From positions 683,389-747,388 of the forward strand of contig BCIK01000004.1 in NCBI GenBank assembly GCA_039545295.1: a stretch of DNA of 64,000 bases, read 5' to 3'. The position numbers and the translations under genes are program-made. Positions 46,801 through 64,000 of the stretch are shown here, piece by piece. A model generated the notes under the pieces. The model made no database searches. It worked only from the letters and a program-made list of their open reading frames with translations, and was not told the DNA's origin. This DNA is from Udeniomyces pyricola. Its lineage: Eukaryota > Basidiomycota > Tremellomycetes > Cystofilobasidiales > Mrakiaceae. How positions within the stretch are numbered: position 1 is the first letter of the stretch; each line of letters opens with the position of its first letter.

Positions 46801-49124
46801 ACTAAGCGTGAACACTTCAAGCTTCCGATGCGGTCAATTGGATGGGCTGACTAACTCTGTTTGCACATCAATACCGTTCCTCATCACCCCTCCGCGCCTT
46901 CTCTCTTTTGCTCTTACTATCTCTGTTTACAATCCTACTTCTCAGGTGGCGAAATTACCGGCCAGCAGGGTGGACCCCTTGGCATCAAGCCAGAGGACAT
47001 GACCGACGAGGTCTGGGAGTACGTCCTCGGATCGGGCGCCTTCCCCTCGTCGCATTCGCTTCCCGAGTCCAAGTTCAGCCAGCTCAAGCGAGAGTTCCAG
47101 TACTTCTACCCGATGGACGTCCGATCATCCGGCAAGGACCTCATTCCCAACCATCTCTCTTTCTGCATCTACATCCACGCCGCCTTGTTCCCCGAGGAGC
47201 ACTGGCCCAAGAGCATGCGAGCCAACGGTCACCTCATGCTCAACGGCAAGAAGATGGCCAAGAGCACGGGTAACAGTCTGACGCTCAAGGAGGCTGTCAA
47301 GAAGTTTGGTGCCGATGCTACGAGGCTCACGCTTGCTGACTCTGGTGACGGAATCGAGGTAAGACCAACCCGACTTTTCCTTTTTTTTTTCCTCTTGGGG
47401 TTGGAAGCAGATGGAGAGACAAATGCCCACAGCTAGCAGTCAACTGATTCGGCCCTCGATCTCTTTATCTTCTCTCTTCGATAGGATGCCAACTTCGAGG
47501 AGCTCACTGCCAACGCCGCTATTCAGCGACTCCACACTCAGCTCATGTACATTGACGTATGTGTTTCCATCCCGCCGTCTCTTGAATGCATTGGTTCTCG
47601 TCACGGTATCAGCTGTCTTGCTCAATTCCACTGATGCATCTTCATACGCTTGCGATGTCCGTACGTTCGCTCCCACAGGAGGTCCTGTCGAACAAGGGTG
47701 CTCTCCGAACCGGCCCGACCGACTCCTTCTGGGACAAGGCGTTCTTGGAGGAGATGTGGGACATCACCGAGAGGACTCGGGAGGCCTATGAAAAGTCAGT
47801 CGAATGAAAGCTCACCTCTTGATCCGTTTGGTTGATCGAAACTCCTGAAGAATACTGATGGAATAAATCTCGCTTGTTTTAATTTTGCTTCTTCTTCTAT
47901 TTTTGTTGTTGTTGTTGGTTGTATCACGTTGTAGGACTTGGTACAAGGAAGCTCTCCAGTACGGTTTCTACGAGTTGGACAACGCCCGACGTGCCTACAC
48001 GGAGACGACGACCGATATCGGCATGCACTACGACGTCTTCATGCAGTACCTCGAGCGAGCCGCCTTGCTTGCTGCCCCTCTGATCCCTCATTTCGCCGAG
48101 CACATCTGGTCGACCGTTCTTCAAAAGCCGACTTCGGTTCAAAACGCTCTGTTCCCCGAGCCTCACGCCGTCGACAAGTCGACGATTGCCTCGGTCGAGT
48201 ACATCCGAACGACGCTCAAGGAGGTCCGAGACCGACAGATTGGCCTCGACAAGGCCAAGGCCAAGGCGAAGAAGGGCGTCAAGGGTGGATCGATGCCCAT
48301 TGCGGATCGAGAGAAGCCCCTCAAGGCGAGGCTCTACGTCGCCAAGAGCTGGCCAGAATGGCAAAACCAGATCGTCGCCGCTGTCAAGGCCAACTTTGAT
48401 GAGTCGACGAACCAGGTCGACGACGTCAAGGTCCGAGAGGCCCTCACTGCCGCTGGACTCATCAAGAACAAGAGAGCGATGCCTTACGTCATGGGACTCA
48501 AGGTACGTTGGCCGATCTTTATCCTACTCTGCTCTCTCTGCCCAAGAACTGATAGATCTCTGTCTTTTATCGGCTACGTCCTTCTTTCTTCTTCTTCTTC
48601 TTATTGTTTTGTTGCACTCCTTGCTTCCTCTGTCCATCCCTTCAGAAACGCATCGCCGAGTTTGGAGCTGCCGTCGCGTTTGAGCGAACGCTCCCTTACA
48701 ACGAGACCGAGTGCCTCGCCATTCTCGCGCCTTACATGGAGAAGAACCTTTCCCTTGTCGCCGTCGAGGTCATTGCCGTCGAAGCTGCGGCCGAACTCCT
48801 CGAGAAGGGCGACAAGACCGAGTTCGAAGAGGGTTGGTCGAAGCAAACTCTCGAGGAAGCTCAACCGGGTCAACCCGCCGTGACGTTCTGTTCGTTGCTT
48901 CTCTCTTCTCTTTTGCTGCCTTGTTCTTTTTCTTCTTCTTTTTTTTCTTTTTTTTTTTCGTCGTGTTCTGGCTTCCCTTACCGCTCTGCCTTTGGTTTTG
49001 CCACGCTCATTCGGAACCATACGCTGACACCCACAAACACACTTTTTCATCCATGTCTTTCTTTCCCCTCCGCTCGTGGTTCTTTGAATTTTCCGTCTTC
49101 TTCCTCTAAACAGGGAACGCTTAA
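43831..49124 (+). CDS. cytosolic leucyl-tRNA synthetase
   Basis: Sixteen exons give about 1116 aa, the normal length for eukaryotic cytosolic LeuRS: 43831-43899, 44109-44275, 44385-44526, 44663-44867, 44948-45021, 45115-45165, 45252-45544, 45652-45907, 46013-46482, 46588-46787, 46946-47358, 47485-47556, 47679-47794, 47935-48502, 48646-48889, 49114-49124. It charges tRNA-Leu and edits mischarged products in a CP1 domain. Seen: [13 protein letters not shown] (HIGH box), [28 protein letters not shown] (CP1 editing domain), QFYDWRxxR-class context around [25 protein letters not shown] and the ATP loop [12 protein letters not shown], in which the usual KMSKS Ser is Ala. The anticodon-binding and C-terminal domains follow. 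The last coding exon is only 11 nt and encodes the end of FWNA and the stop. It converges with the aldo/keto reductase. Confidence 0.96.
45977..46001 (+). repeat. (TC)n microsatellite in a LeuRS intron
   Basis: A dinucleotide run lies just before the acceptor at 46012 in intron 8 and probably doubles as its polypyrimidine tract. Confidence 0.85.
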
Positions 49125-49321
49125 AGAGCAGCATCCTAGAAACAGACGAGAAAAAAAAAAGAGAGCGAAGTGGGGAGGGACGTAGGTGTCCACGTAATTT
49201 TCCAGTCGATGAATGGGTTTTCTTTCAATTCATTGCCTCAACGACATTCACATAGACAAACAGAGGAAGAGAAAGACCTAGAGAGAAGACTCCGAGAAAA
49301 AAGACATTTACATATGAATAC

Positions 49322-49344
49322 ATATATATATATATATATATATA
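49322..49344. repeat. (AT)n microsatellite
   Basis: A perfect alternating AT run of about 23 nt sits in the 272-bp space between the convergent LeuRS and aldo/keto reductase genes. Confidence 0.85.
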
Positions 49345-49396
49345 CGTATAGAGATACGGCATGTTTGTCAAACATCTACTCGAGCCTTGGTTGGTT

Positions 49397-49689
49397 TTAA
49401 GCGCAGTTGAGGTCCGTAGGGACGACTGGTTCATCGCTGCCTTCTCCCAAAGCATCAATCTTGGTCATCTCTTCCTTGGTCAACTCGAATCCGTAAAGAT
49501 CGGCGTTATCCTACAAACACACATAAGACAGTCAACGCAAAGACGAAGGGGAGAAAAAAAAAAAGGGGGAGGGGTTCGTTCAGCGTTCAGAGCCCGAGTT
49601 TTGATACCGATTGAATGAAAAGTTGAGTTGAAGGTTTGGTGAAGGATGTTCGGGCACAAATCATTCCTCAACACCTCGACGAGTTTCGC

Positions 49690-49744
<55 letters not shown>

Positions 49745-51313
49745 CTGAGCGACTGACCTTGATTCGGGAAGGGGTGTCCGACTTGGGAAGGGGAACGAAA
49801 CCCTTCTGGAGCGACCATCTCAGAAGGACTTGAGATGGGGAGACTGAGTGCGCCTCCGCGATCGAGACGAGCGTCGGATCGGAATTTTTGGTCGCTCGGA
49901 CGAGAGGGCAGTATGCCTGAGTGACAAGCACAAGAAAGAAAAAAAAAGAAAAAAAGAGTCCGAGCCGAAAGAGGAACAAGGTCAAGAAGCAGCCGTGAGT
50001 AACTGGATCGTATGTAGACAGGTATTCGAGATGATTTAAGCCGAATGGGGAAGCTTGTAGAGTCTAAGGGGAGATCTCGATGGACGGACCTGGAGGGTGA
50101 TGTTGTTCTTCTGGCAGTAGGCGACGAGATCGCGTCGCTGGCACCACGGGTGAAGCTACACGAGTGTCAAGGCCGACAACGAGATAAACATGCAAAGATT
50201 CAAGAAGAACACGTAAGCGAAAACATCCAATATACCCTTTGGTTTCAGCATCGTTTGCTTTCTGGATGCATTCTCGAGGTAACTCACCTCGATCTGGTTA
50301 ACGGCAGGAGGGACAGAAGAAAACTCCTTGATCTGCTCGAGGTGCTTGATGCCGTAGTTGGAGACTCCGATGGCTCGCGTCTTGCCGTCCTTGCGAAGGC
50401 GCTCAAGGCCTTTCCAAAGGGTCTGTCGGCCTGAAAGAGATGGTCGGCTTGTCAGCCGTAAGTTGATGCGATCAAGAGCTCTTCCACTCCCCATCTGAGC
50501 CACCTTCATTGAACGCATCACTCGGCATCCTTCCAACTCAAAATAAACCAGTTGAAACAAGCGAAACCGAACTTACCCTGGGGACCACTCGAAGGAGTGT
50601 GAATCAAGAAGAGATCGACCTTGCCGCCATCCTCCTTCAACCCAAACTTCTCCACCCCATGAACGAGATCTTGGTAAGTCTTCTCCTCGTCGTTGCCCTC
50701 GGCAGGGAAGAGGATTTTGGTGGTAAGGAAGACAGAAGATCGAGGGATAGAAGATGAAGTGACGGCCTCTCCGACTTGGGCTTCGTTGTCATAGTAGCCA
50801 GCCGAATCGATGTCTGAAGAAGGAAAAAAGAAACGATTTTGATGAAGTTTATTCATTTGTTAGCCAAGAACGGAACGATCAAGACTTCTTTGGCCCTCCT
50901 TTCTCTACGGGAAGGTCGTTTAAACTCGTCCAACCGACGCATCCGAAGAAGAAGAAAAGAGTTGGACCGTAGGTCGAAAGCTCGAGATGTCAGAAGAGAT
51001 GAGAAGGAACAGCGGAACTCACGACGGTAGCCAGCCTCCAGCGCGGTCGAGGTGGACTTGGTGCAGACATCGTTGGGAGATTGGTACACTAGAGAAAGTC
51101 AGCCGTCAAAGAATCAGGACGTCAGTTGGATGATATACGATACAGCGCTGTGAAGGCGCATACCAGGTCAAAGCCAGCGTTTCGTGAAGAGCATTCCCCT
51201 CTCTTCCCCCCCCCCCCCGATCGCCTCGAAAAGCGAAGCTTACCTCCAAAGCCAAGCCGAGGCATCTGAACGCCTTCGGCGATGGTAACAGTATCGTTGA
51301 GAGTGAAGGACAT
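49397..51313 (-). CDS. aldo/keto reductase
   Basis: Seven exons on the minus strand (51313-51244, 51088-51023, 50813-50577, 50430-50288, 50155-50090, 49916-49758, 49510-49397) join to about 284 aa, typical for the family. AKRs reduce aldehydes and ketones with NADPH in a TIM barrel. Motifs: MPRLGFGGV near the start; GYRHIDSAGYYDNE with catalytic Asp and Tyr; a Lys in VFLTTKILFP; the active-site His in LFLIHTPSSGPQG; IGVSNYGIKHLE; LHPWCQRRDLVAYC; AYCPLVRA; and the cofactor-binding PLPKSDTPSRIKDNADLYGFEL (19 residues quoted by position only in part). It ends LNCA. About 0.4 kb separates it from the ATP-grasp gene on the same strand, so it may belong to the mycosporine locus. Intron 6 contains a long GA repeat. 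Substrate unknown. Confidence 0.93.
49694..49743. repeat. (GA)n microsatellite inside an aldo/keto reductase intron
   Basis: About 50 nt of near-perfect GA dinucleotides. On the coding (minus) strand it is a CT run that begins about a dozen bases after the donor of intron 6. Confidence 0.9.
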
Positions 51314-51721
51314 GATAGTGTAGGTCTAGTAAGTGAGCGGAAAGGCGAGAGGCGAGGGTACGGCAAGGGACTCAAGAAGGAGATGGAAGGCAGAGATGAT
51401 CGATGATCGATCGGGGATGTGCAAGGGGGATTGAAAGGAAAGGAGTGACGTTGGTGATTTTGAGAAGCGAAGGAGTAGTATTTGGTATATGCTTTTTTTT
51501 CATGATTTTTTCCCGTTCAATTGTGGATTGATATGACGCTTACAGCTCGGATGTTACGTCGATCGAGAGCAATGATTTCATGTGATTACATCGGGTGGCC
51601 GCCCGCCCACTTCTCTTTTGTTTACCGCCACTTCCGACGCCCTCTGACTTCGATCATATAGCATGTCCAATCCCCCCCCCCCCTCCCCCTCATCTTTCCT
51701 TCCTTCCCTCGATCCCTCCGT
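51314..51721. promoter_or_regulatory. aldo/keto reductase upstream region
   Basis: About 0.4 kb between two minus-strand genes, holding the promoter of the reductase and the 3' end of the ATP-grasp gene. A C-rich tract (near 51672) and T-run (near 51490) are present; no other gene. Confidence 0.4.
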
Positions 51722-53609
51722 TCAGCACTCAAACACCCTCGCCGTACTCACGTTGATCCGCGTCCACCTCTTTCCCTTCTTGACCAAGCAATTCCACAAC
51801 AGCAGGACAACCTGCCCATGCCCAAGGACGAGGAACGGCATCGGGTCCTCCCAATCGAACATGGGATCGTTCCACCACCAACTCTCACCTTGCCCCTGAG
51901 CCTCCTCGACCGTCTGATCCAACCATGGGTGAATAGTTGCTCGCAGCGACTTGGGAATGAACCGAGGAATGAACCTCGCCGCGAGGTCGTGCGAAACCCA
52001 CGAGCGAGGCTTCGTTGAAGGGAGAGGCGTGATGGGGAGCGTCGAAGCAGGGATGAGGGAGAGCAAGGATTGAGCAAAGCTCAAAGGTGGAAGAAGAGTG
52101 CAGGCGGTATGGACCCGAGGGTTGCATTCAATGATGTAAAGTTGCTTGTCCGCAGAGAGGATGAAGTCGAATGAGAACGAGCCATTAAGAGGAGAGTTGG
52201 GTGTCTTGGCCTGAAGTCGCGTCAGGAAGGTTTGAGTGTAGGCGAGAGCTTGCTTTCCGACAGGTGAAGAGGTTGCATTCTGATAGGTCATGAGCATGTC
52301 GTTCTGTGGAGGGAGGGGTAGGGAAATGTAAGGAGAGATCAGTTTTTCATCCTGAGCTTGCGGCCGCTTATTTTCAGTCAAACCCAGATGGAACATACAC
52401 TTGGGCAACAAACAAAGGCCGCCAACTTTCCCTCGACGACGCTCGCATGGGTACACCATTCCGTTCCCCCGCCAATGAACTGTTGGAGCGCGTAAGGCGT
52501 CTTGTCGCAGATGGGAATTCTCAAGCCTTCGAGTCGCTTACGCGTCTTAGTAAGGTGCTCATCATCGCCTTTGAGAGGGTACGTCGTGAGATCGGCTCGG
52601 CCCAGATCGTCAAGCTCGGCGGTACACTTGAGGATGAGAGGATGAGGCGACGATCGGATGACGGAGAGCGCAGAAGAGATGCTCGAAACCGTCTTGGAGG
52701 AAGGTGCGAGCAGGCCAAGCGAATGGATAAGCTCGATGAAGAGATCCTGGAAAGGAAGAATCGGAGTTTATGCAAAGTTAACAATGAATGAAGGAACATA
52801 GTCGGAACCTCAAAAGGAAATAAATCAAACGGATTGGGGTCGTACCTTTTCATGCAGCGTCCTGCAAAGCTCTTCACTCTGGATGATGGCTTTGAATCCA
52901 GGGATTTGCTTGATCATCAATTCAGCTGCTTTTGCGTCGTCGACCGTCGATCCAGCTCCGGAGCACGGCACAAACATGGAACAGCCTTCCTCTTTGGCAA
53001 TTCGGGCGAGGGCCTTGACGTAGGCTTGTCGACCTGCCGGAGACGAGGTCTGAGGAACGAGATGGAACGTGTCGATGGCAGAGGAAAATCGGGTTGCACA
53101 AAGATCTCCCCAGCTGCAAGGAGCGTAAGTAGGTAGATCGAGATGGGATTATCAGAGCCGGAAAATGGGACCAAGATTTCGGAAGGTGAGCTTGGGTTGT
53201 TCGATTCATCTGCCACGATCTCATTTCCCTCGGTTTTGCGAGTGGAGCCATCTCTGACGTACGCTTGCTCCTCTACGAGAACGACTCGGACCCCAACTTT
53301 GGCCAAAGCTCGAGCGACCGTCAAGCTCTTGCTCATCCTCGCTCCGTTTACAAGAACGCTCAGCCTTCCGTCCCCTCGCCCTCCTGCTCTTTCTCGCTGG
53401 CGAGTCGATCGGATGTGCCCATTGGATCCATTGAGCTGACTGACTTGAGGCGATCGGGGATTGAGATACCGCCTGAGACGCGCGAGGAGCTCAAGCGGGA
53501 CGACGAGTGAAAGTGTGAGGGGAAGTGTCGCCAGCGACAGGGAAAGAAGGAAAAGTGAGACGATCCAGGTTTGAAGGAACGTCGGTGTGGCCGGTTGGAC
53601 GGCTGGCAT
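51722..53609 (-). CDS. ATP-grasp ligase, mycosporine synthase (MysC-like)
   Basis: Four exons on the minus strand (53609-53263, 53113-52846, 52746-52399, 52303-51722) join to about 514 aa. In the known mycosporine pathway an ATP-grasp enzyme couples 4-deoxygadusol to an amino acid, using ATP. Seen: a hydrophobic N-terminal segment (about residues 13-45, WIVSLFLLSLSLATLPL) suggesting a membrane anchor; a preATP-grasp start VLVNGARMSKSLTVARALA; SMFVPCSGAGSTVDDAKAAE; DLFIELIHSLGL; RIPICDKTPYALQQFIGGG; and the metal/nucleotide-binding block FDFILSADKQLYIIECNPRV, where the Glu and Asn are the expected ligands. The locus with methyltransferase and cyclase genes supports the role strongly. The amino acid used is not shown by the sequence. 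Confidence 0.88.
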
Positions 53610-55069
53610 GATGGCGATGGGTGCAGGCGATATGGTCTGAGGAGAGGCACGCGGCGGTAGGGCTATATATGTCGATACGAGTGCGTTGCTTTTCTCTCTC
53701 TCGAAAGGGTAAAAATATTCAGAGGAGGGAGAGGGGGGCGAAGGTGATTTGCGATGGTCGACTGGGGAAGATGCGAACTAGCGGGATGGTTCTGTGTCAA
53801 CGCGATGTCTCCGTGAAAGGTCGATTCGATGGTAGGAGCTTGGAGCTTGGAGTTTTGAGCGCTGGGCTGTGAGATCATAGTACGTGCGTGCAGCGTGGGT
53901 GAAGAGCAATGTGATCAGCAATCCGTCCGGGGGTGTGCCGGTGATGACGCGGCCACATACGGCGATGGGCGATGGGTACGTTGGATCTGCAAGATGGGCC
54001 GCCGGATTGAGGATGCACCGAGTCCGCAATGCTGAACGTCTCTAATAACGTTTACGTGGAGATTAGAGAGCGTGGTACTCGATACTGGACCGAGTGGAGC
54101 GACTCTCTTTGCTTGCGGGACGACTCTGAAAGCTCAGATAGTTCAGCGGTCAGTGTGAGCACGGCATATAACATGAGCGATGGCTCTCAGATCCTATAAC
54201 ATGATGTCAAAGGCAGCCAGTCGACATGTTCCTGATCTTGGTCGTGTCATCACATCATACGTACATACGCACGCTTCAAATTGGAGCCTGAAACATCTGG
54301 CCATGGTGCATCGAGCTTCGAGCATCGTACATATGCATGCATCGGGCCATCGAGTATTGATCATGATCGGATATAGCTGGTAGGCCGGAGCTTTGGCTAC
54401 GATGAGTCGGTGGAGCCTTCCTGGAAGAAGCGCAAGTCGATGCACGATGGTGAGCCGTTCTCGATTGGAGCGCCGCGCCGGATTGCGCCGAGGGACGCCG
54501 GCCAAGCGCCGAGACTTGAAATGTTGAGAGCGCGGGAGATCCATCCCGACGTTAGCATGTCGGCTCCTTTTAATATGTGAAAGCAGCTTCCGGAAGTTCC
54601 GGGGTCAGATCGATCAGACGTCACGCGCCACCTCGCCAGACGCCTGTCCATGCACGTTGCGTTGCACGTCGATGGACGAGAACCTGTGGACTGCCGGATC
54701 TCGGAGTTTTTGCTATTCCAAGCGCTGCCAGCATTACATTGCGTTGGCATTCAACACTCCGACTCGCGAGCGGGATGCATCCCATCGCGTTATGCACAAT
54801 TCGTACTGGGCCGATGATCTCTTCACTCGGATCTTATATTCGACGACACGAGTACAACAATGCGACATAAATACAGGCGGATTCGAAGATGCATTGGTGA
54901 ATCACAGATGAGAAAGCCATGTGATAACGCGCCGTACGTGTTCTCAAAACCTCTACTCCCTTCCAACACAGTTGGTGATCTCGACACTGAGAATGATGAC
55001 GACGAACGGTCGATTAGCCTTGATAGTACTGATTCACAGGATTCGAAGGACAGAGAGATAGCAAGAAAC
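53610..55069. other. intergenic, ATP-grasp promoter side
   Basis: About 1.5 kb between two minus-strand genes: upstream DNA of the ATP-grasp gene and 3' flank of the methyltransferase gene. Only short ORFs without motifs are present, so no gene is supported. Confidence 0.45.
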
Positions 55070-56332
55070 TCACGCATCGTCTTCAGCAGTGTAAGGGTCA
55101 AAGGACTCGTAAAGCCGCGACTCATACTTGAGCTCGGGTACGCCCTTGCCCTCCCACTCGCCACCCTTCTCCGAGAACCACTTCTTCCTCTCCTCAATGG
55201 ATGCACGGACGTACTTCAGGTAAGGCGGGTTACCTGCAAATTGATGATAAGACGGTGGGTAAGGGAAGTAAGATCGTGATCAGTCGCCAAACTCACATAG
55301 GTTGCAGAACAACACAGCTTCAAGTCACGCACCTGGCTTGACAACGTTGTCAGCAACGATGGTCGTTCCGGGTCCCACAAGGCCAAGGGACTCGAGCAGC
55401 TGGAGATCAGGCGTGTAGAGAGGCTTGAGATGGTCAAGGAAGAGGAAATCGAACGTCTCGTCCGGTCCGAGCGAGAGAGTCTCTCGAAGAGTGGCTATTG
55501 AGTCGGTGGATGATCCAACGATGATCTGAGAGGCGGATGTAAATACGACGAGCGTCAGCTTCGATGTACAAGCGCTTGTACAGAGAGTGAGCTTTGAACA
55601 GGACCAGACGAGATGAAAAGCAACTGACTTTGGCAAACTTTCCCACACCTCCGATATCAAGAACACCACGAGCAACCTCAGCGTATTCAGGGTTGAATTC
55701 AAGGCAAACATATCCAGCTTTCTGTTGTCCTTCCTTTGCGGATGCCCAGTTATCGGGGGTGACGGCGTCGGGGAAGTTGCGTTCGATGTGGCGAGCGAAC
55801 CGGAGCGAAGAGTATCCAACGTAAGTGCCGAGCTCGAGAACCTTGGCCGGCTTGCGGTCAGCGATGACAGCTTCGACTTCTTGGCCCTGAGAATGTCGGT
55901 CAAAACAGATATAGATCATGTCAGAATGGAACTCGGAGATGATCGGAATAGTAGAAGATGAGCAAGGTAAAAGAAAAGAAGAAGAAAAAAAAAGAGAAGG
56001 GAGAAACCCTGCAAATCTCGTGAAGCCAACCGATGACCGTGGTACCCATTTTTCATTTTGACGAGATGAATGCTCTGGAATGCCATGTATGCGGCCAAAT
56101 CTCATGACAGAACAGGAAAAGGTTGACTGACCTTGTGCTTGCCAACATTCATGAGGTACTGAGTCTCTCCAAACTTGTCGATGGCCTCAAGGACGAGGTC
56201 CGAATTGCCCTGGAGCTCGCTCGAGCGCGATTGAAGGTGCTTGAGCAAGGCCGGCTCACGACCATCGCCGTGGAAGACGGTGCCCTCGACGGGCTGGGAA
56301 GTAGGCGTAGGGCGGGCGACAGATGAAGGCAT
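55070..56332 (-). CDS. COMT-like O-methyltransferase, 4-deoxygadusol-forming (MysB-like)
   Basis: Four exons on the minus strand (56332-56132, 55886-55629, 55525-55333, 55233-55070) give about 271 aa, close to the cyanobacterial MysB length of about 280. The SAM-binding motif I is KVLELGTYVGYSSLRFA, preceded by the helix QYLMNVGKHKGQEVE as in catechol O-methyltransferases. VCLEFNPEYAEVAR is motif II and FDFLFLDHLKPLY supplies the metal-binding Asp, with VADNV further on. The enzyme would methylate desmethyl-4-deoxygadusol using S-adenosylmethionine and a divalent metal. It is divergent from the cyclase gene and on the same strand as the ATP-grasp gene. On its own the sequence says only COMT-like; the specific role rests on the neighbours. 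Confidence 0.88.
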
Positions 56333-57375
56333 GTTGAGGAGAAGATGGGGCGATAACGTGAGCAGGGACGGATGGATGAGAGGGCGAGATGGGGTGCGAA
56401 AAGAGTTGAGATCGATGATGGGGAGCGCGCGATGGAGATGGAGCGGGCGGCGTGCGTGCGATGGCAAGGAGCGGAAGGGGCGATGATGACGATGATGGAG
56501 TTGACGAGGGCGCGCTGTGAGCGAGACTGAGCGCTGAGCTGTGAGCGAGACTGAGCGCTGAGCAGAGCAGAGGGATATTACTGGGTGATAAATGCGGGGG
56601 AAGGCGAGGAGAAGGTGAAGTGGCTTCGACGATCGGGACGAGAAGTATGGGGGGGGGGGGGGAACCGGGTAGAGAGAACGGAGCTTGGGACAGACAGGCT
56701 GGAACGGAGAGCTGAAAGCCGAGAGCCTAAGAAGAATAAAGAGGGCAAGAATGTGTGTGCCCCAGACGAAAAGGGATGGCCAAAGCTGATCGATCGGATC
56801 GGTTGGTCTGTAGTAGCGGCTCATGGCGTGCGCTCGCTCTGAAGCTGTGAAGCTCGGAAGCTTGGCTGAGCCAAATTCATCAGAGAGGACAGTCAGGCTA
56901 GTGAAGCGACGTCAGATCAGATCGTCAGTCTCAACTCGCAACCGGGTCTACGCTCCACCCGGCATTCGCTCCCGATCGCACCTTTACTCGTTCTGTCTCG
57001 CTTTCCTTGCTCGCTCGCCGCCATACGCAGTATCCTGTCCTACGTATGCGGCGGCAACCCATCGCACGAATTGCTCCCCCTTCCATCGCGATCCGGTCTA
57101 TGCAAATGAAGCCCCGCACCACCGAGTTCGCTCCTTGAAAAGACGATCAGCCCATCGAAAGACAAGTTCCCTTCTTCTTCCACCACCTTTCTACTTCTCC
57201 TCCCTCGACTCACTCTCCTCAACAGAGCCCAACACCCGCCCTCTTCTCAACGAAGCCAAGCCCCATCTCGACTCTAAACCTTCCCGCCCCTTTTTCATCC
57301 CGTCTTTTCATCCAACTCCCATCTCACCACTTCCCCCCCACCACCAACTACCCAATCTCCCGATCTACCTTCAAA
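56333..57375. promoter_or_regulatory. divergent promoter region of the mycosporine methyltransferase and cyclase genes
   Basis: About 1.04 kb separates the two start codons. It contains a direct 24-bp duplication (56514-56561), a G-rich run near 56650-56661 and a long pyrimidine-rich leader before the cyclase ATG. Shared regulation of the two pathway genes is likely but not demonstrated. Confidence 0.5.
56514..56561. repeat. 24-bp tandem duplication in the divergent promoter
   Basis: Two perfect adjacent copies of a 24-bp unit beginning gctgtgagcgagactgagcg, at 56514-56537 and 56538-56561. Each contains the sub-motif GAGCG twice. Confidence 0.85.
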
Positions 57376-59567
57376 ATGTGTGACTGCAACAACTTCGCTG
57401 CCTCCTCCGATCTCCGTGCCTCTGTCACTGAGACCCCCGCCACCAAGAACTCGGTTGGTACCGGTCTTGTCGTCAAGGGTGAGTAACATGTAGCCGATCT
57501 CCCTGCCAGCCGTTCTATCCATCGTTCCCCCCCCCCCTTCCGATCTCTCTTGAGTTTCCCATCGCATCTGTTCATCCCCCCCCCCTTTTGCCACTTGCAT
57601 GCATCTTCGGATCGACTTCTTACTCACGCCACACCCGATCACTTTCTCCTCCCATCCCCCCTTGGCTTTTATTTTTCGCTTTCCCCTTCCCCCTGCTTGC
57701 AGGTGCCGAGTCCCTTCAGTACTCGTACTCTTTCGTCGACGACGTCTTCTCGCCCGAGAAGGACGATCTCTCGACTTACTACACCAAGTGGGGACGAGTC
57801 CTTGTCATCCTTGACGAGGTTGTTAACAAGCTTTACGGTGATGCCATCAAGAAGTGTGAGTCACGCACTCCTGCTTCATCCGATTTTTAGGGTATCCGGT
57901 TTCTCGGACGCCGATCCGGCATCCCATTCTTCACTAGGCATTCTTTTCCCTTTCTCTTCCGCCTTCATTAACTGATATTTGCATCCTCACTCCCCTTCGA
58001 TTAGACTTCGCCGCCTACAACATTGAGCCCACTCTTCACGTTTTCAACGGTGGAGAGCTCAACAAGAACATGAGGACCATGGTTAGTAACCTTTCGATCT
58101 CCACATCTTTTGCGACAGGCTACCCACGTTGGTCAGTGCACCTTTGGAACATAGGCTCATCATGCTTTCGATCTTTGTCATTATGTAGGAGTCCTTTGTC
58201 GATGCCATGGACGACTTTGGCCTCATCCGAAAGGAGCCCGTTCTCGTCGTCGGTGGTGGTCTTGCCACTGACGTTGTTGGCTACGCTTGCGCCTCTTACC
58301 GACGATCGTCCAACTTCATTCGAGTCTCCAGTATGTATACAAGTCTCCACACGTCCAGCTGCGTATCTCCACTCGCCATGCTGATGATTTCACTTTGCTC
58401 GCTTCAGCCACCCTCATTGGTTTGATCGATGCCGCTGTCTCCATCAAGGTTGGAATCAACCACAAGAAGCTCAAGAACCGACTTGGTGCCTACCACGCTC
58501 CCATGCACACCTTCCTTGACTTCAACTTCCTCCAGACCCTCCCCGTCGGTCAGATCAGGGTCAGTTGCAATTCACATACATCTTTTCCACTGATTGGCGC
58601 AGAACTTTTGTTCATTGACTTATTTTCTATGATACCTTTTTTTTTTTACAATACACAGAACGGTTTCTCCGAGATCATCAAGATCTCCCACGTCGCCCAC
58701 AAGCCCACCTGGGACCTTATGGTCGCTCACGGCAAGGAGCTCGTTGACACCGGTTTCGGTCGAAAGATCGAGGGCCAGACCTCGGAGGAGCTCTCCAAGG
58801 TTGCTGCCACTATCTGCAGGAACGCCATCCGAGTCATGCTTGACGTGAGTGTTTTCGTTCTTGTCGTGTAGCTGCTCTTCTTCTTTTGCACCAAAGAAAC
58901 CCCAACAGTGCGCTGATCAAATCTCTCCTCTTTACCCGTTTTCTTGTGCTTTCTTCAGCTCGAGTCCGGAAACCTTCACGAGATCAAGCTCGACCGAGTC
59001 ATTGCCAGCGGTCACACTTGGTCTCCTGTCCTCGAGTTGACTCCCAAGATCCCCCTCCGACACGGTCACGCCATTGCCATCGACATGGCCTACTCGGCTA
59101 CCCTTGCCTTCTCCCGAGGATACATCACCGCTGAGGAGCGCGACGAGATGGTCGGTCTTCAGGTCAAGGTCGGACTTTCGGTCGACCACGAGCTCTTCGA
59201 CTCGGCCCTCCTCAAGAAGGCCACCGAGATGATCCTCAAGACCCGAGACGGCAAGCAGTGGTTCGCCGTCGCCAAGCCCCTCGGTACTTGCGCCTTCATC
59301 AACGATGCTTCGGACGAGGAACTCGACTCCGTCCTCCAGCAGCACAAGCAGTACATCCGGGAGAAGTTCCCCCACCTCAAGAACGGTGCCGGTCAGGACG
59401 CCACTCTTGATGCTTCCGACATGGGTTGCTCGCCCGAGTCGTTCGCCGCCCTCGTCGAGGCTCAGGCCAAGGGTGCTTCCATCGAGGCTTCCAAGCTCAA
59501 GGTCGAGACCAACGGCGAGGCTACCCCGGCTGTCTCGGCTCCCACCGAGTCCAACGTCGCTGCTTAA
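57376..59567 (+). CDS. desmethyl-4-deoxygadusol synthase (sugar-phosphate cyclase, MysA-like)
   Basis: Seven exons (57376-57478, 57703-57855, 58005-58081, 58189-58330, 58408-58559, 58659-58844, 58959-59567) give about 473 aa. Sedoheptulose-7-phosphate cyclases of the dehydroquinate-synthase superfamily make desmethyl-4-deoxygadusol from sedoheptulose 7-phosphate using NAD+ and a metal. Seen: [12 protein letters not shown]-binding [16 protein letters not shown]; the substrate loop [19 protein letters not shown], close to the DDGS/EEVS type and unlike the SS-GGKT form of true dehydroquinate synthase; [12 protein letters not shown], typical of DDGS; metal ligands in [11 protein letters not shown] (Glu) and [16 protein letters not shown] (His). 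The tail beyond about residue 430 is Ala/Glu-rich. DDGS rather than EEVS is favoured by motifs and by the linked methyltransferase and ATP-grasp genes. Confidence 0.93.
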
Positions 59568-60633
59568 ATAGCAAGGATTGAGTAGCCACTTTCAGTAGTC
59601 GTTTGCCTTATCCGCATTCTCGTCCTATTCTCTTTCTTTTTTCTTTTGCATCTCGATCTCGACCGCTGTACAAAAACGCATGGCCATCGAGCCTTTCTTT
59701 TCCTCTCTCTTCCTCTCAGGGTTTTACGTTTCTCCCCCCTCCCTCTTCATTATTTTTATCTTCTCACACTACCTCTTTCATGTTGTGTGTTCTCTATGTT
59801 CTCACCTTCCCTTGATCCTGTCTGTGCTCTGCCCATTCCCCCCCTCTCCCCTTTTTTGTTCCTTTTTTTTTTTGTTCCACGCAACCTGCCTCTATACTGT
59901 ATTCAAAGGAGGATTATTGTCTCGGAATCCAGTGTTGCTTCCCTTGAATTTGTGACATTAAGAAGGTCTCCTCAAGTCCGTGATGATGTCGTGATGGTTA
60001 CCTTGATCATACGGTATCGAAACTCCAGTTGAGTCTCACATAACTAACTAGCTTTGATCAAGCCTGAGATCCGGTCGCCTGTCCGGTCGCCGACCAGTTG
60101 AATCAAAAAGTCTCACTTGGAACAGCCCGTCTACATATCATTGCGCTGCAAGACGAGCATGCCTGTGCGGTTGTAGGTGCAACGAGTGCTTGCGACATTT
60201 TCCCCATATGCAAGCTGTCTGCAGCGTCCGACAAGGGTCCCGTTCGATCAGAGTTAATTTGGGGAGACAACATATATATATATACAGCACTCATATATAT
60301 CGACGCCATGACGGGCTGAAATGATGTAGCTAGGCTCGATGACTATCGATGAAGGGGTCAATCAACCCCAAAAAAATTTCGAGTAAGTACGCCAAGTAAG
60401 TCCCGAATATGAAGGATCAGCTACATTGATCACAGGGCTGCACTAGCTAGTACGTTGTTTGAGCTTATAGGCTACACGCATGCGTATGCACATCTCGAGG
60501 TTGACACACGCACGAGTCATACTTTTCCAAGCAGCAGTAGTACATCAGCATCGGCATCTACAATAGATGAATGTACGTCTTCCCTTCCGCCCCCCCCGCC
60601 CCCCCCCCCCCCGCTTTCAGTCTGTTCATTCAT
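59568..60633. other. intergenic between convergent cyclase and Ytp1-like genes
   Basis: About 1.07 kb. T-rich sequence follows the cyclase stop, with TA repeats near 60273-60300 and a C-rich tract near 60587-60612 at the Ytp1-like 3' end. No gene. Confidence 0.45.
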
Positions 60634-61204
60634 TCATGCTGCTGCACCGCGCCTAGTCGACCGCCTATCTTGTCTCCCTTCGATCTCCTCCTCGAAACTA
60701 TCTCGTCTCGATCCACCACTAAGACTGATGTTCTCATTACTCCCCTCATCAACTCGAGGAGACTCTCCTTCATCGTCTTCTCCATCACTCATCCTTCCTT
60801 GCCTTTCCCTTTCCCTCTCGACCCTCTCCCTCTCCCTCTCCCTCCTAGTCGGCGTCTCGTCCAACTCGAACCGTTCGGCTTCGAACAGGTCCAAGGCTTC
60901 GTACCCTGCGTCTCCAGGCTGCTTCATCAAACCAACATGATCGCGTTGATGATGGTGTTGACGACGACGACGACGCGAGAAGGGGTCGATGGAGGAGGAG
61001 GAAGACTCTCGGTCTGAGAGTCGATCGGTCGGCGTAGGTGAGCCACCGAAAGTAGGGGAGGTGTAAGCGGAGATAAGGACAGTGATAAGGAGGTAGATGA
61101 GGAAGGAGATGGAGAACATGACTGATTGAGAAGAAAGGGAGTTGTCCGATCCAGGGGAGAGCGATAGGAGGAATAGTACCGGGAGGGAAGCGCGCGCAAG
61201 AAGG

Positions 61205-61239
<35 letters not shown>

Positions 61240-63705
61240 CATGCATGCATAGAGGTTTTGGTTAACATCACAGAACAAGACCCCATGCAACTTCGTCAAG
61301 ATTGAATAAAGAAGAGAAAGAATTGAGTCATGCAGGGTTTTTTTTTTTTTCTTTGGTAAACACTCAACTGAGCATGTAGGTGACGCCATCGAGGTTCATA
61401 GCGTCAATGACTTTGAGCTCCTCGTCTGTGGCCGAAAGAAAGATGCAGCTAAGAAGGTAAAACGATGAGAAAAAAAAAAGCAGACATGGACCATACACAT
61501 TGATGGAAGAGTTCGTTTCTTAGTTCAGTCAAGTTTTTGCCTTCCAACCCGACAAGAGCGAACCCAACCCCCCCCCCCACCCCCTCCTCTCCTCCTGATC
61601 CAACATACAGCAAAACCCAAACAACAATAAAAATAAAAACAAAAGAACCTCTCACCCTGTAAGTGTCAGGAGGTACGGATAAAGGTGCTGCCAAGCCTTG
61701 ACGCCTTCACCTCGGGGTCCTTCCCCGCTCGGTTGGTCGTTCAAGACGAAGCAGATTTCGACGATCCGAACGACACCGGCGCTGCCGAGGGCCCAAGCGA
61801 GAACTTTGTGGACCAGGCTCGAGACTTCGAGTTTTTGGACGTGGCCTCCAAAACTTGAGGAAAGGCCGCCGTAGTCCGCACACGCACATACGCACATATA
61901 CACATACATACACGCACGAATCAAATGTCAAACCGAGGTAGGCAAGATTCAAGTCAAATTCGTTTGACCGTTGGATCAGTAAGAGAACGGCTTGCTTGCT
62001 TCAAGGCGCAGAATGACCGTTTGCGGCCGATTGAGGTTTGTTTTCCTTTCTTCCTCTAGGAACAGAGGCACTCACGCATATCCAGTCATGATGAAGACGA
62101 TGGCAGGGATGACATTTCGTTTCCCACCGAGCGACATGAACACACCTGAGATGACGCAAATCACCAAAGACAGACAGAGTGAGATCCCGGCAGTAAGCCG
62201 CAGAACATATATAGCCTGGATATCGGCTCGATCGAGATTGGATCAAGGGATGGAACATACCAAGCATTCCTCCTGCCCACCAGAGCAATCCTAAGCTACA
62301 TAGTTGGAAGGAAATACAATTGAGGAGAGAAGGAGTCTGAGCAGGTCTTCCAGACGATACGAAAGCCACGTTGCTATCGAATAAGATTGGTGAGACGGTG
62401 AGGATTGAGGCAACTCACCTGGTATGCTACATGATATAGTGGATAGAGATGGTGTCCATGTCAGGTCAGTTACTGTCACTTTCCTCTTCTCCTTCTTCTT
62501 TTGATCAGGCACCATACGTTTGAGATGACAGACCTGCATGTCTGCATTACAAATAGAAAGAAAAGACATACGCTGTAGGTCAGCGTGCGGTGTCGTACAG
62601 GTTGTTGACATGAAAAGTGAAGAGGGAACAGAATCACGAACCTTTATGTGACCAACCGTCACTGTGGCGCATTGAAAACGTGTTGATAATGCCGAATCTA
62701 GGAGAGAAAAACGAGTTCACATGCATCAAACGAAAGCAGGAAGAGGTTCAAGCTCAAAGAGATCTACGCTGGACCAGAAGTGAGTAAGGAGCAAAGAAGA
62801 GAAGACGTACGTCATGATCATGAGAGAATCATAGAGCTCCTGGCTCGTGCCTGTTCTTCTCAAGGCTTCCGTGCCCGCCGACATCATGATCGAAAGCAGG
62901 GTCGAATAGACGATAAAGGAAAGGCCAAATGTCCAGTGCGCCAGGCATTGCAACTGCTCCTCACCCAAACAATAGCCCAAGTACGTAAACGCCCCAAAGA
63001 GTGCCTGGGCAAAGCCAAGGAGCGGGAAGAGTCGCCCGAGAATACCATGAAGGCGAACGACGATGGATCGAAATCGCTCTCGGTGGGTTTTGAGGTAGAC
63101 GCCTGAAGCGGCTTGACCCGCGAGGACGAACAGGAGAGCCGTGGCCATCGGTCCGTCTGTACGTCGTAGCACAGTCAGTTGGTTGGTCGATACACGGTAT
63201 ACCAATGAGGAGTGAGCGATTTTTTTTGTAGTAGCTATTGTACAAGAAAAGAGAATTCAACGTGATGAGAACGTGCACACGTACGGACTGTATAGCGGTA
63301 TTCTCGAACACCCTGCTCAGCTCCGCCATGGTGATGGCCAAGGGTATAGCCCACGGCTGTCGTCAGCAGTATGGCTGTAGATTGAACAGGCACGTGATAA
63401 CGAGATTTCCTGCAGCAATCGAACAACGCTTACGTCAGTCAGTCAGTATGTATGGTTGTAGGTCATCGATCGGCTTGTATATCGGTCAAGTCGCGGTCCT
63501 CGTTGCCCCGACGCAGTTGGAACTCGTTTCCTCAGTAAGCTCGCAAGAACGAAGCTTACTTGAGTCCAAGGATCATGCCGAGGGGCAAGACGATTCCCCA
63601 GATGCATCCTTGCAGTACCATGTGGATCCAAATGAGCGAGCCCGGTGGGGTTGTGTCGTCGCTGAGGACGAGGTGGTGTTCGTGGCGAGGTTGGAATGAG
63701 GCCAT
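60634..63705 (-). CDS. Ytp1-like multi-spanning membrane protein (DUF2427 plus Ytp1 C-terminal)
   Basis: Eleven exons on the minus strand (63705-63560, 63409-63285, 63156-62811, 62697-62642, 62541-62534, 62426-62419, 62295-62261, 62145-62076, 61853-61656, 61448-61369, 61121-60634) join to about 519 aa. About ten hydrophobic segments are visible, beginning IWIHMVLQGCIWGIVLPLG, then VGYTLGHHHGG, LHGILGRLFPLLGFAQALFG, WSHKDMQHTSLGLLWWAGG, RNVIPAIVFIMTGYA, GVVRIVEICFVLND, TDEELKVID and LIMFSISFLIYLL. These match the order in fungal Ytp1-like proteins. The C-terminal 130 aa are soluble and rich in Arg, Glu and Ser. Function in fungi is unclear; conserved His/Trp suggest a redox or metal role in membranes. 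Two consecutive exons are only 8 nt and together encode part of DMQHTS. Its 3' end faces the cyclase gene. Confidence 0.9.
61210..61238. repeat. poly-A tract (poly-T on the coding strand) in a Ytp1-like intron
   Basis: About 29 A in the intron between 61368 and 61122. On the transcribed sense it is a T-run about 90 nt before the acceptor. Confidence 0.88.
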
Positions 63706-64000
63706 CGGAAAAAGGACAGAGCCAGGATGATCCGTGTCTGAGAGGGATGGCTAGTCGAGTGTGGGAGTCAAGGCGCAAAGACGAGGATCCAACGTTAGAG
63801 AAGGATGAGGAGAGGGGTCCTGGATATGAGAAGGCGACAACTTTAGAAGATCGGTGGACGTTGTAAGGGGGCCGAAGCCTGCATCCGACTGCGGTCTGGC
63901 TTTGAGTTATCGATCGGAAATCGGGGGAGACGCGTGCATGGAAAACACAGCTGATGCGATTGGTTCACGCAATGCAGATAGGTCACGTACACGTTACATG
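63706..64000. other. upstream flank of the Ytp1-like gene
   Basis: Purine-rich on the plus strand (pyrimidine-rich leader on the minus strand) next to the start codon at 63705. No further gene is visible before the window ends. Confidence 0.4.

Follow-up and report, generated by a model that had tools for sequence, protein, structure and literature searches.

A predicted mycosporine gene cluster in Udeniomyces pyricola and its kinship to that of Phaffia rhodozyma

The window examined here is a stretch of 64,000 nucleotides from the tremellomycete Udeniomyces pyricola (GenBank assembly GCA_039545295.1, contig BCIK01000004.1, positions 683,389 to 747,388). Between its positions 51722 and 59567 lie three intact, intron-bearing genes encoding a putative 2-desmethyl-4-deoxygadusol synthase (DDGS), an S-adenosylmethionine-dependent O-methyltransferase resembling catechol O-methyltransferase (COMT) and designated OMT, and an ATP-grasp mycosporine ligase of the MysC type (ATPG). 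As judged from its genes, the locus is orthologous to the proven mycosporine (MYC) cluster of Phaffia rhodozyma, and it is a real, complete and very probably working mycosporine cluster. That this basidiomycete cluster would carry out the same three reactions as its Phaffia orthologue, the exact amine excepted, can be accepted with high confidence.

An 8-kb cluster of EEVS-like, O-methyltransferase and ATP-grasp genes was described in P. rhodozyma in 2016, and was missing from a non-producing strain (PMC5103461). In 2023 the cluster was reported to measure 7873 bp, with DDGS divergent from OMT and ATPG; the three genes have 14, 7 and 6 exons and encode 477, 284 and 500 amino acids, respectively (PMC10057719). 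Deletion of any one of them abolished mycosporines, deletion of the ligase gene left 4-deoxygadusol, and the three cDNAs expressed in Saccharomyces cerevisiae led to the formation of mycosporine-glutaminol (PMC10057719). The mycosporine genes of Naganishia friedmannii include EEVS-like and catechol O-methyltransferase genes (PMC12204325).

Gene models and likeness to the Phaffia cluster

In the gene models, which were predicted from the DNA sequence alone, DDGS occupies 57376-59567 on the forward strand and comprises seven exons (57376-57478, 57703-57855, 58005-58081, 58189-58330, 58408-58559, 58659-58844 and 58959-59567) encoding 473 amino acids. OMT is read from the reverse strand (56332-54953) in five exons (56332-56132, 55886-55629, 55525-55333, 55233-55074 and 54986-54953) encoding 281 amino acids. 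It is followed on the same strand by ATPG (53609-51722), with four exons (53609-53263, 53113-52846, 52746-52399 and 52303-51722) and 514 amino acids. All 13 introns have GT...AG ends, and each spliced frame has a single terminal stop. An in-frame TGA near 55070 in OMT overlaps a GTGAGT splice donor, and a last exon at 54986-54953 was preferred. The original prediction of a mycosporine locus of three separate, linked and intron-bearing genes at 51722-59567 was borne out, all three being complete. Its outer coordinates were exact for the cyclase and the ligase; for the methyltransferase, placed at 55070-56332, the COMT-like nature and the start were correct and the end was not, the last exon having been missed.

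The coding span of the cluster is 7846 bp. The 1043-bp region between the divergent start codons of DDGS and OMT (56333-57375) is probably a shared promoter region, from which the genes may be jointly regulated. The three genes are adjacent, and their content, order and orientation, with DDGS divergent from OMT-ATPG, are those of Phaffia, as is, very nearly, their span (7846 vs. 7873 bp). Protein identities between the two clusters are 73% for DDGS, 80% for OMT and 52-54% for ATPG. They differ in exon number (7, 5 and 4 in the window vs. 14, 7 and 6), in the gap between OMT and ATPG (1343 vs. 621 bp in Phaffia) and in that between DDGS and OMT (1043 bp vs. the 1568 bp of IGR1 in Phaffia). Moreover, the Phaffia chemistry has been shown by experiment, whereas the window cluster is known from its genes. 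In protein homology searches run against 5.77 billion proteins the E-values were 2.0e-224 for DDGS, 3.0e-145 for OMT and 4.8e-166 for ATPG, a three-gene similarity far beyond chance.

The state of the genes also bears on the suggestion that the locus might be a silent or decaying relic from which no sunscreen is produced. The cluster is missing from some P. rhodozyma strains, and introducing it into such a strain makes no difference to growth in culture (PMC5103461; PMC10057719); the trait is therefore dispensable in the laboratory. Decay is at odds with the three intact frames, the 13 of 13 GT...AG introns and the retention of family-invariant residues. Mycosporine-less Phaffia mutants are reportedly less tolerant of UVB (PMC10057719), which argues for upkeep of the trait by selection. 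We consider it very improbable that the locus is a relic.

Cyclase and methyltransferase

The protein nearest to the window cyclase is Phaffia DDGS, a member of an experimentally proven family. Its best NCBIfam match was aroB, the dehydroquinate synthase (DHQS) model, under cut-off (176 vs. 305 bits), a result that would suit an EEVS or DHQS in a cluster making a valiolone- or gadusol-type cyclitol rather than a mycosporine. Solved structures gave a different ranking: 5tpr scored 414 bits, 4p53 226 bits and the dehydroquinate synthases at most 102 bits. We take 5tpr, deposited as a 3-dehydroquinate synthase, to be the DDGS of A. variabilis, and 4p53 to be the EEVS ValA. The window cyclase has A287 and T366 where ValA has Asp and His, as do 52 of 52 DDGS rows, and it keeps the metal ligands E214, H290 and H306. 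Ala and Thr, in place of the Asp and His of EEVS, are presumably the fingerprint residues, and Glu, His and His the metal ligands, which fits the ValA and 5tpr rows. Two active-site fingerprint positions have been reported to tell EEVS from DDGS (PMC4426668), and 28 positions are kept in the 30-residue segment by which the Phaffia enzyme was named a Ddgs (PMC10057719).

A cyclase tree of 54 rows was made from the window protein, 41 of the 120 listed matches, 9 of the 80 bacterial loci, 5tpr, ValA and the organism's own AROM-type DHQS. The window and Phaffia proteins were joined at 100/99. In this phylogeny, a check that the original prediction had proposed, the cyclase was placed with DDGS and not with EEVS or DHQS, the 52 DDGS rows splitting from ValA and AROM at 100/100, with very long branches for both of these outgroup rows. 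The separate AROM-type gene was found in family searches of the 25.0-Mb genome, which were made exon by exon and scored only the best candidates. The DHQ_synthase family matched only the cluster DDGS and one gene on contig 29, which, judged by eye, is of the AROM type, DHQS running into EPSP-synthase-like sequence. No second match to ATPG or OMT at E≤0.001 was seen among the candidates scored genome-wide. The scores against PDB structures, the active-site fingerprint and the tree agree in classing the cyclase as a DDGS, and its identity as an EEVS or dehydroquinate synthase was rejected. The closeness to Phaffia DDGS and the presence of a separate AROM-type DHQS also speak against that identity, and a cluster making a valiolone- or gadusol-type cyclitol is very improbable.

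DDGS-like proteins were also seen in records of the bdelloid rotifer Adineta ricciae (P0066, 56% identity) and the amoebozoan Planoprotostelium fungivorum (P0106, 54% identity), possibly through contamination. Two of the 80 best bacterial DDGS loci are actinobacterial, L070 (Nocardioides) and L084 (Pseudonocardia); the remaining record titles are cyanobacterial.

The likeness of OMT to the 284-residue Phaffia OMT extends over 98% of the query, and PF01596 matched it at 37.2 bits (cut-off 22); this domain and the close kinship to Phaffia OMT mark it as a COMT-like MYC methyltransferase. The Phaffia protein (P0195) was also compared with solved catechol O-methyltransferases. A match to OMT at E≤1e-5 was found in 29 of 80 bacterial loci, the six best displayed being 26-31% identical; by this comparison OMT and the cyanobacterial methyltransferase are only distantly related. 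Of the 209 OMT matches 120 were listed, and no Ustilaginomycotina name was noticed among those that carried a name. Since these smut fungi have close DDGS and ATPG homologues yet no OMT name listed, they may use a different methyltransferase.

The cyanobacterial genes mysA, mysB and mysC carry out the same three steps (cf. PMC10057719). Homologues of the window cyclase were present in the 80 bacterial loci at 47-55% identity (two of the loci being the actinobacterial ones), and the ligase gave tblastn matches in 74 of the 80, with 29-32% identity in the six best shown. In the window, by contrast, the genes are separate, intron-bearing and eukaryotic, two of them start divergently, OMT is distant, and no MysD was found by the exon-by-exon search of the genome. 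The MysA-MysB-MysC-type assignment first made for the three genes was right by family, homology, active-site residues and Phaffia orthology; the description of them as the complete core known from cyanobacteria applies to the homologous cyclase and ligase, and has to be qualified for the distantly related OMT.

Ligase, probable product and neighbouring genes

Of the three proteins, ATPG has diverged most from its Phaffia counterpart; it retains 41 of 41 invariant family residues. An ATP-grasp fold was predicted by a fold search with the Phaffia homologue P0121, not with the window protein. The GTPase ObgE, seen in two weak PDB sequence matches of Phaffia ATPG (E 0.03), was dismissed as chance, the fold search having settled the family. 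Through the fold of P0121 and homology to cyanobacterial MysC, ATPG is assigned to the MysC-type ATP-grasp ligases. A predicted protein of 891 amino acids from Exobasidium rhododendri (P0176) combines DDGS-family domains with an ATPG match; it may be a fusion of cyclase and ligase, or annotation may have merged two genes.

By analogy with Phaffia, DDGS would convert sedoheptulose 7-phosphate to 2-desmethyl-4-deoxygadusol, OMT would methylate the latter to form 4-deoxygadusol, and ATPG would catalyze the ATP-driven joining of 4-deoxygadusol to an amino compound. In U. pyricola this amine would be glutaminol, and glucosylation by the product of a gene outside the cluster may follow. Since the Phaffia cluster yields mycosporine-glutaminol, the same product is the most likely one here, and we hold it to be probable.

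Several observations weigh against this picture. Besides the aroB match of the cyclase, no Pfam model was found for ATPG at E≤0.001, and its NCBIfam match was under cut-off (161 vs. 406 bits). The kinship of U. pyricola to Phaffia was drawn, in this analysis, from the cluster genes alone. Being only 52-54% identical to the Phaffia ligase, ATPG could accept another amine, such as glutamine, glutamate or serine. Another mycosporine could also be formed if the side chain were altered by an aldo/keto reductase encoded next to the cluster (49397-51313, reverse strand; seven exons, 284 amino acids; PF00248, 153.9 bits), which lies 408 bp beyond the ATPG stop on the same strand. Against a different amine stands the retention of all invariant ATPG positions, which do not necessarily determine the choice of amine, however. 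The reductase matches further places in the genome, and the sufficiency of the three Phaffia genes for mycosporine-glutaminol in S. cerevisiae indicates that no cluster reductase is needed there. For these two reasons it was not counted in the cluster; it is possibly an accessory gene or an unrelated neighbour. A mycosporine other than mycosporine-glutaminol is in our estimate unlikely, with an appreciable chance nonetheless, and is a variant of the preferred explanation, not its opposite.

According to PMC10057719, fungi possess the three core genes but no further genes encoding peptide-joining enzymes. In agreement with the original prediction, which had noted neither MysD nor MysE, no MysD-type gene was detected in the genome by the exon-by-exon search, in which the best candidates were scored, with the D-Ala-D-Ala-ligase family PF07478, to which MysD is related; a pathway to iminomycosporines (shinorine type) is not indicated. 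The only PF07478 matches, C3:1192070-1192291 and C3:1194178-1194612 on contig 3, both overlap CPSase_L_D2 matches. For MysE, which resembles a non-ribosomal peptide synthetase (NRPS), the agreement covers the flanking open reading frames (ORFs) scanned, among which none was recognised; no genome-wide search was made. It is plausible that U. pyricola stops at mycosporine-glutaminol.

No glycosyltransferase or NRPS family was matched among 20 flanking ORFs and gene models, a selection from all ORFs. Besides the aldo/keto reductase, the flanking matches were part of a leucyl-tRNA synthetase and a YTP1-like sequence with a weak cytochrome-b561 match; beyond the window there were histidine-phosphatase and RIO domains, plus a weak one below cut-off. 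ARAGORN found no tRNA in 47000-64000.

Ligase N-terminus and ancestry of the cluster

The N-terminus of the window ATPG (53475-53609) contains a hydrophobic stretch, its best 19-residue mean being 2.2 from residue 19. Such a stretch (mean at least 1.6 within the first 120 residues) is present in 54 of 74 ATPG matches, in one of which, P0161, it lies away from the usual place. Of the 20 that lack it, several start inside the core, two (P0176 and P0178) are preceded by cyclase sequence, another two (P0193 and P0194) are distant, and in P0139 (Naganishia) the protein begins only a short way ahead of the core. When P0176 and P0178 had been excluded beforehand, all 51 rows in which a pattern search located at least 25 residues ahead of the core had the stretch. 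It was also present within the first 80 residues of 73 of 74 bacterial MysC ORFs, whose start was taken as the first possible codon, while the first 80 residues of the controls had it in only 1 of 120 DDGS and 2 of 120 OMT rows. Bacterial MysC aligns with ATPG only from about residue 84 onward. An origin of the hydrophobic N-terminus as a fungal addition was ruled out, since the bacterial ORFs carry such a segment as well.

At least 90% of 25 aligned rows share a proline within the stretch (P27 of P0121), and in the AlphaFold model of Phaffia ATPG the stretch forms one predicted helix, residues 8-47, in which the block means are 89-92 over residues 11-40. An LxP-like motif, picked post hoc, was found in 51 of 51 leaders (47 at the hydrophobic peak) and in 74 of 74 bacterial ORFs. 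It was dropped as a mark of the segment and adds little, because controls have it as well (38% of leaders after shuffling, and the N-termini of 35 of 120 DDGS and 6 of 120 OMT rows); the evidence retained is the hydrophobicity and the near-invariant proline. In bacteria and fungi alike, the majority of full-length ATPG/MysC ligases start with a hydrophobic segment resembling a membrane anchor. The balance tilts slightly toward a MysC ligase that is membrane-anchored in bacteria and fungi by a hydrophobic, usually proline-bearing N-terminal helix; the last step of sunscreen synthesis would then take place at a membrane surface, where the product would be formed or passed on. No statement of a membrane anchor on the ligase was found in the literature searched, including the excerpted text of PMC7660261, which is not proof that there is none.

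Phaffia is a tremellomycete of the Cystofilobasidiales. In the DDGS tree, however, the proteins of Phaffia, the window and the agaric Pterulicium gracile group with nine rows from the Ustilaginomycotina (100/99) and not with those of the Tremellales/Filobasidiales. A single Tremellomycetes clade was rejected by the approximately unbiased (AU) test (p 0.0007; 0.003 without ValA, AROM and L070). The ATPG tree, made from 27 of the 74 matches and the window protein and rooted on three distant ascomycete rows, has long branches, including that of Pterulicium; it gave the same grouping more weakly (98/94; AU p 0.033 for a single Tremellomycetes clade). The AU p-values flatter, because the tested group was chosen once the first match list had been seen. 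The Tremellales/Filobasidiales have homologous DDGS, OMT and ATPG, the DDGS and ATPG belonging to another clade than those of the window. Neighbouring locus tags were seen for all three genes in Kwoniella sp. DSM 27419 (IAU60_001199 to 001197) and Naganishia vaughanmartiniae (QFC22_000111 to 000113), and for OMT and DDGS in Saitozyma podzolica among others. In the first two the tags suggest the order OMT-DDGS-ATPG, read from tag numbers and not from DNA, whereas Phaffia and the window have DDGS-OMT-ATPG. The grouping of DDGS, and more weakly of ATPG, with smut homologues suggests transfer between lineages or an ancient duplication with differential loss, either of which would explain it. Our literature search found no paper on a smut-like ancestry of the Phaffia-type MYC genes.

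The main points of the original prediction were right and were already in print for Phaffia. With the arrangement described and proven in the papers of 2016 and 2023, the cluster type is known and the locus ordinary; what is new is the locus itself, which alone leaves existing knowledge unchanged. Two side leads are open to testing: the anchor-like start of the ligase, and the smut-like ancestry suggested for this type of cluster. As a second and diverged representative of the layout proven in Phaffia, the U. pyricola cluster may serve in locating conserved regulatory and catalytic parts, and in the heterologous production of sunscreens.

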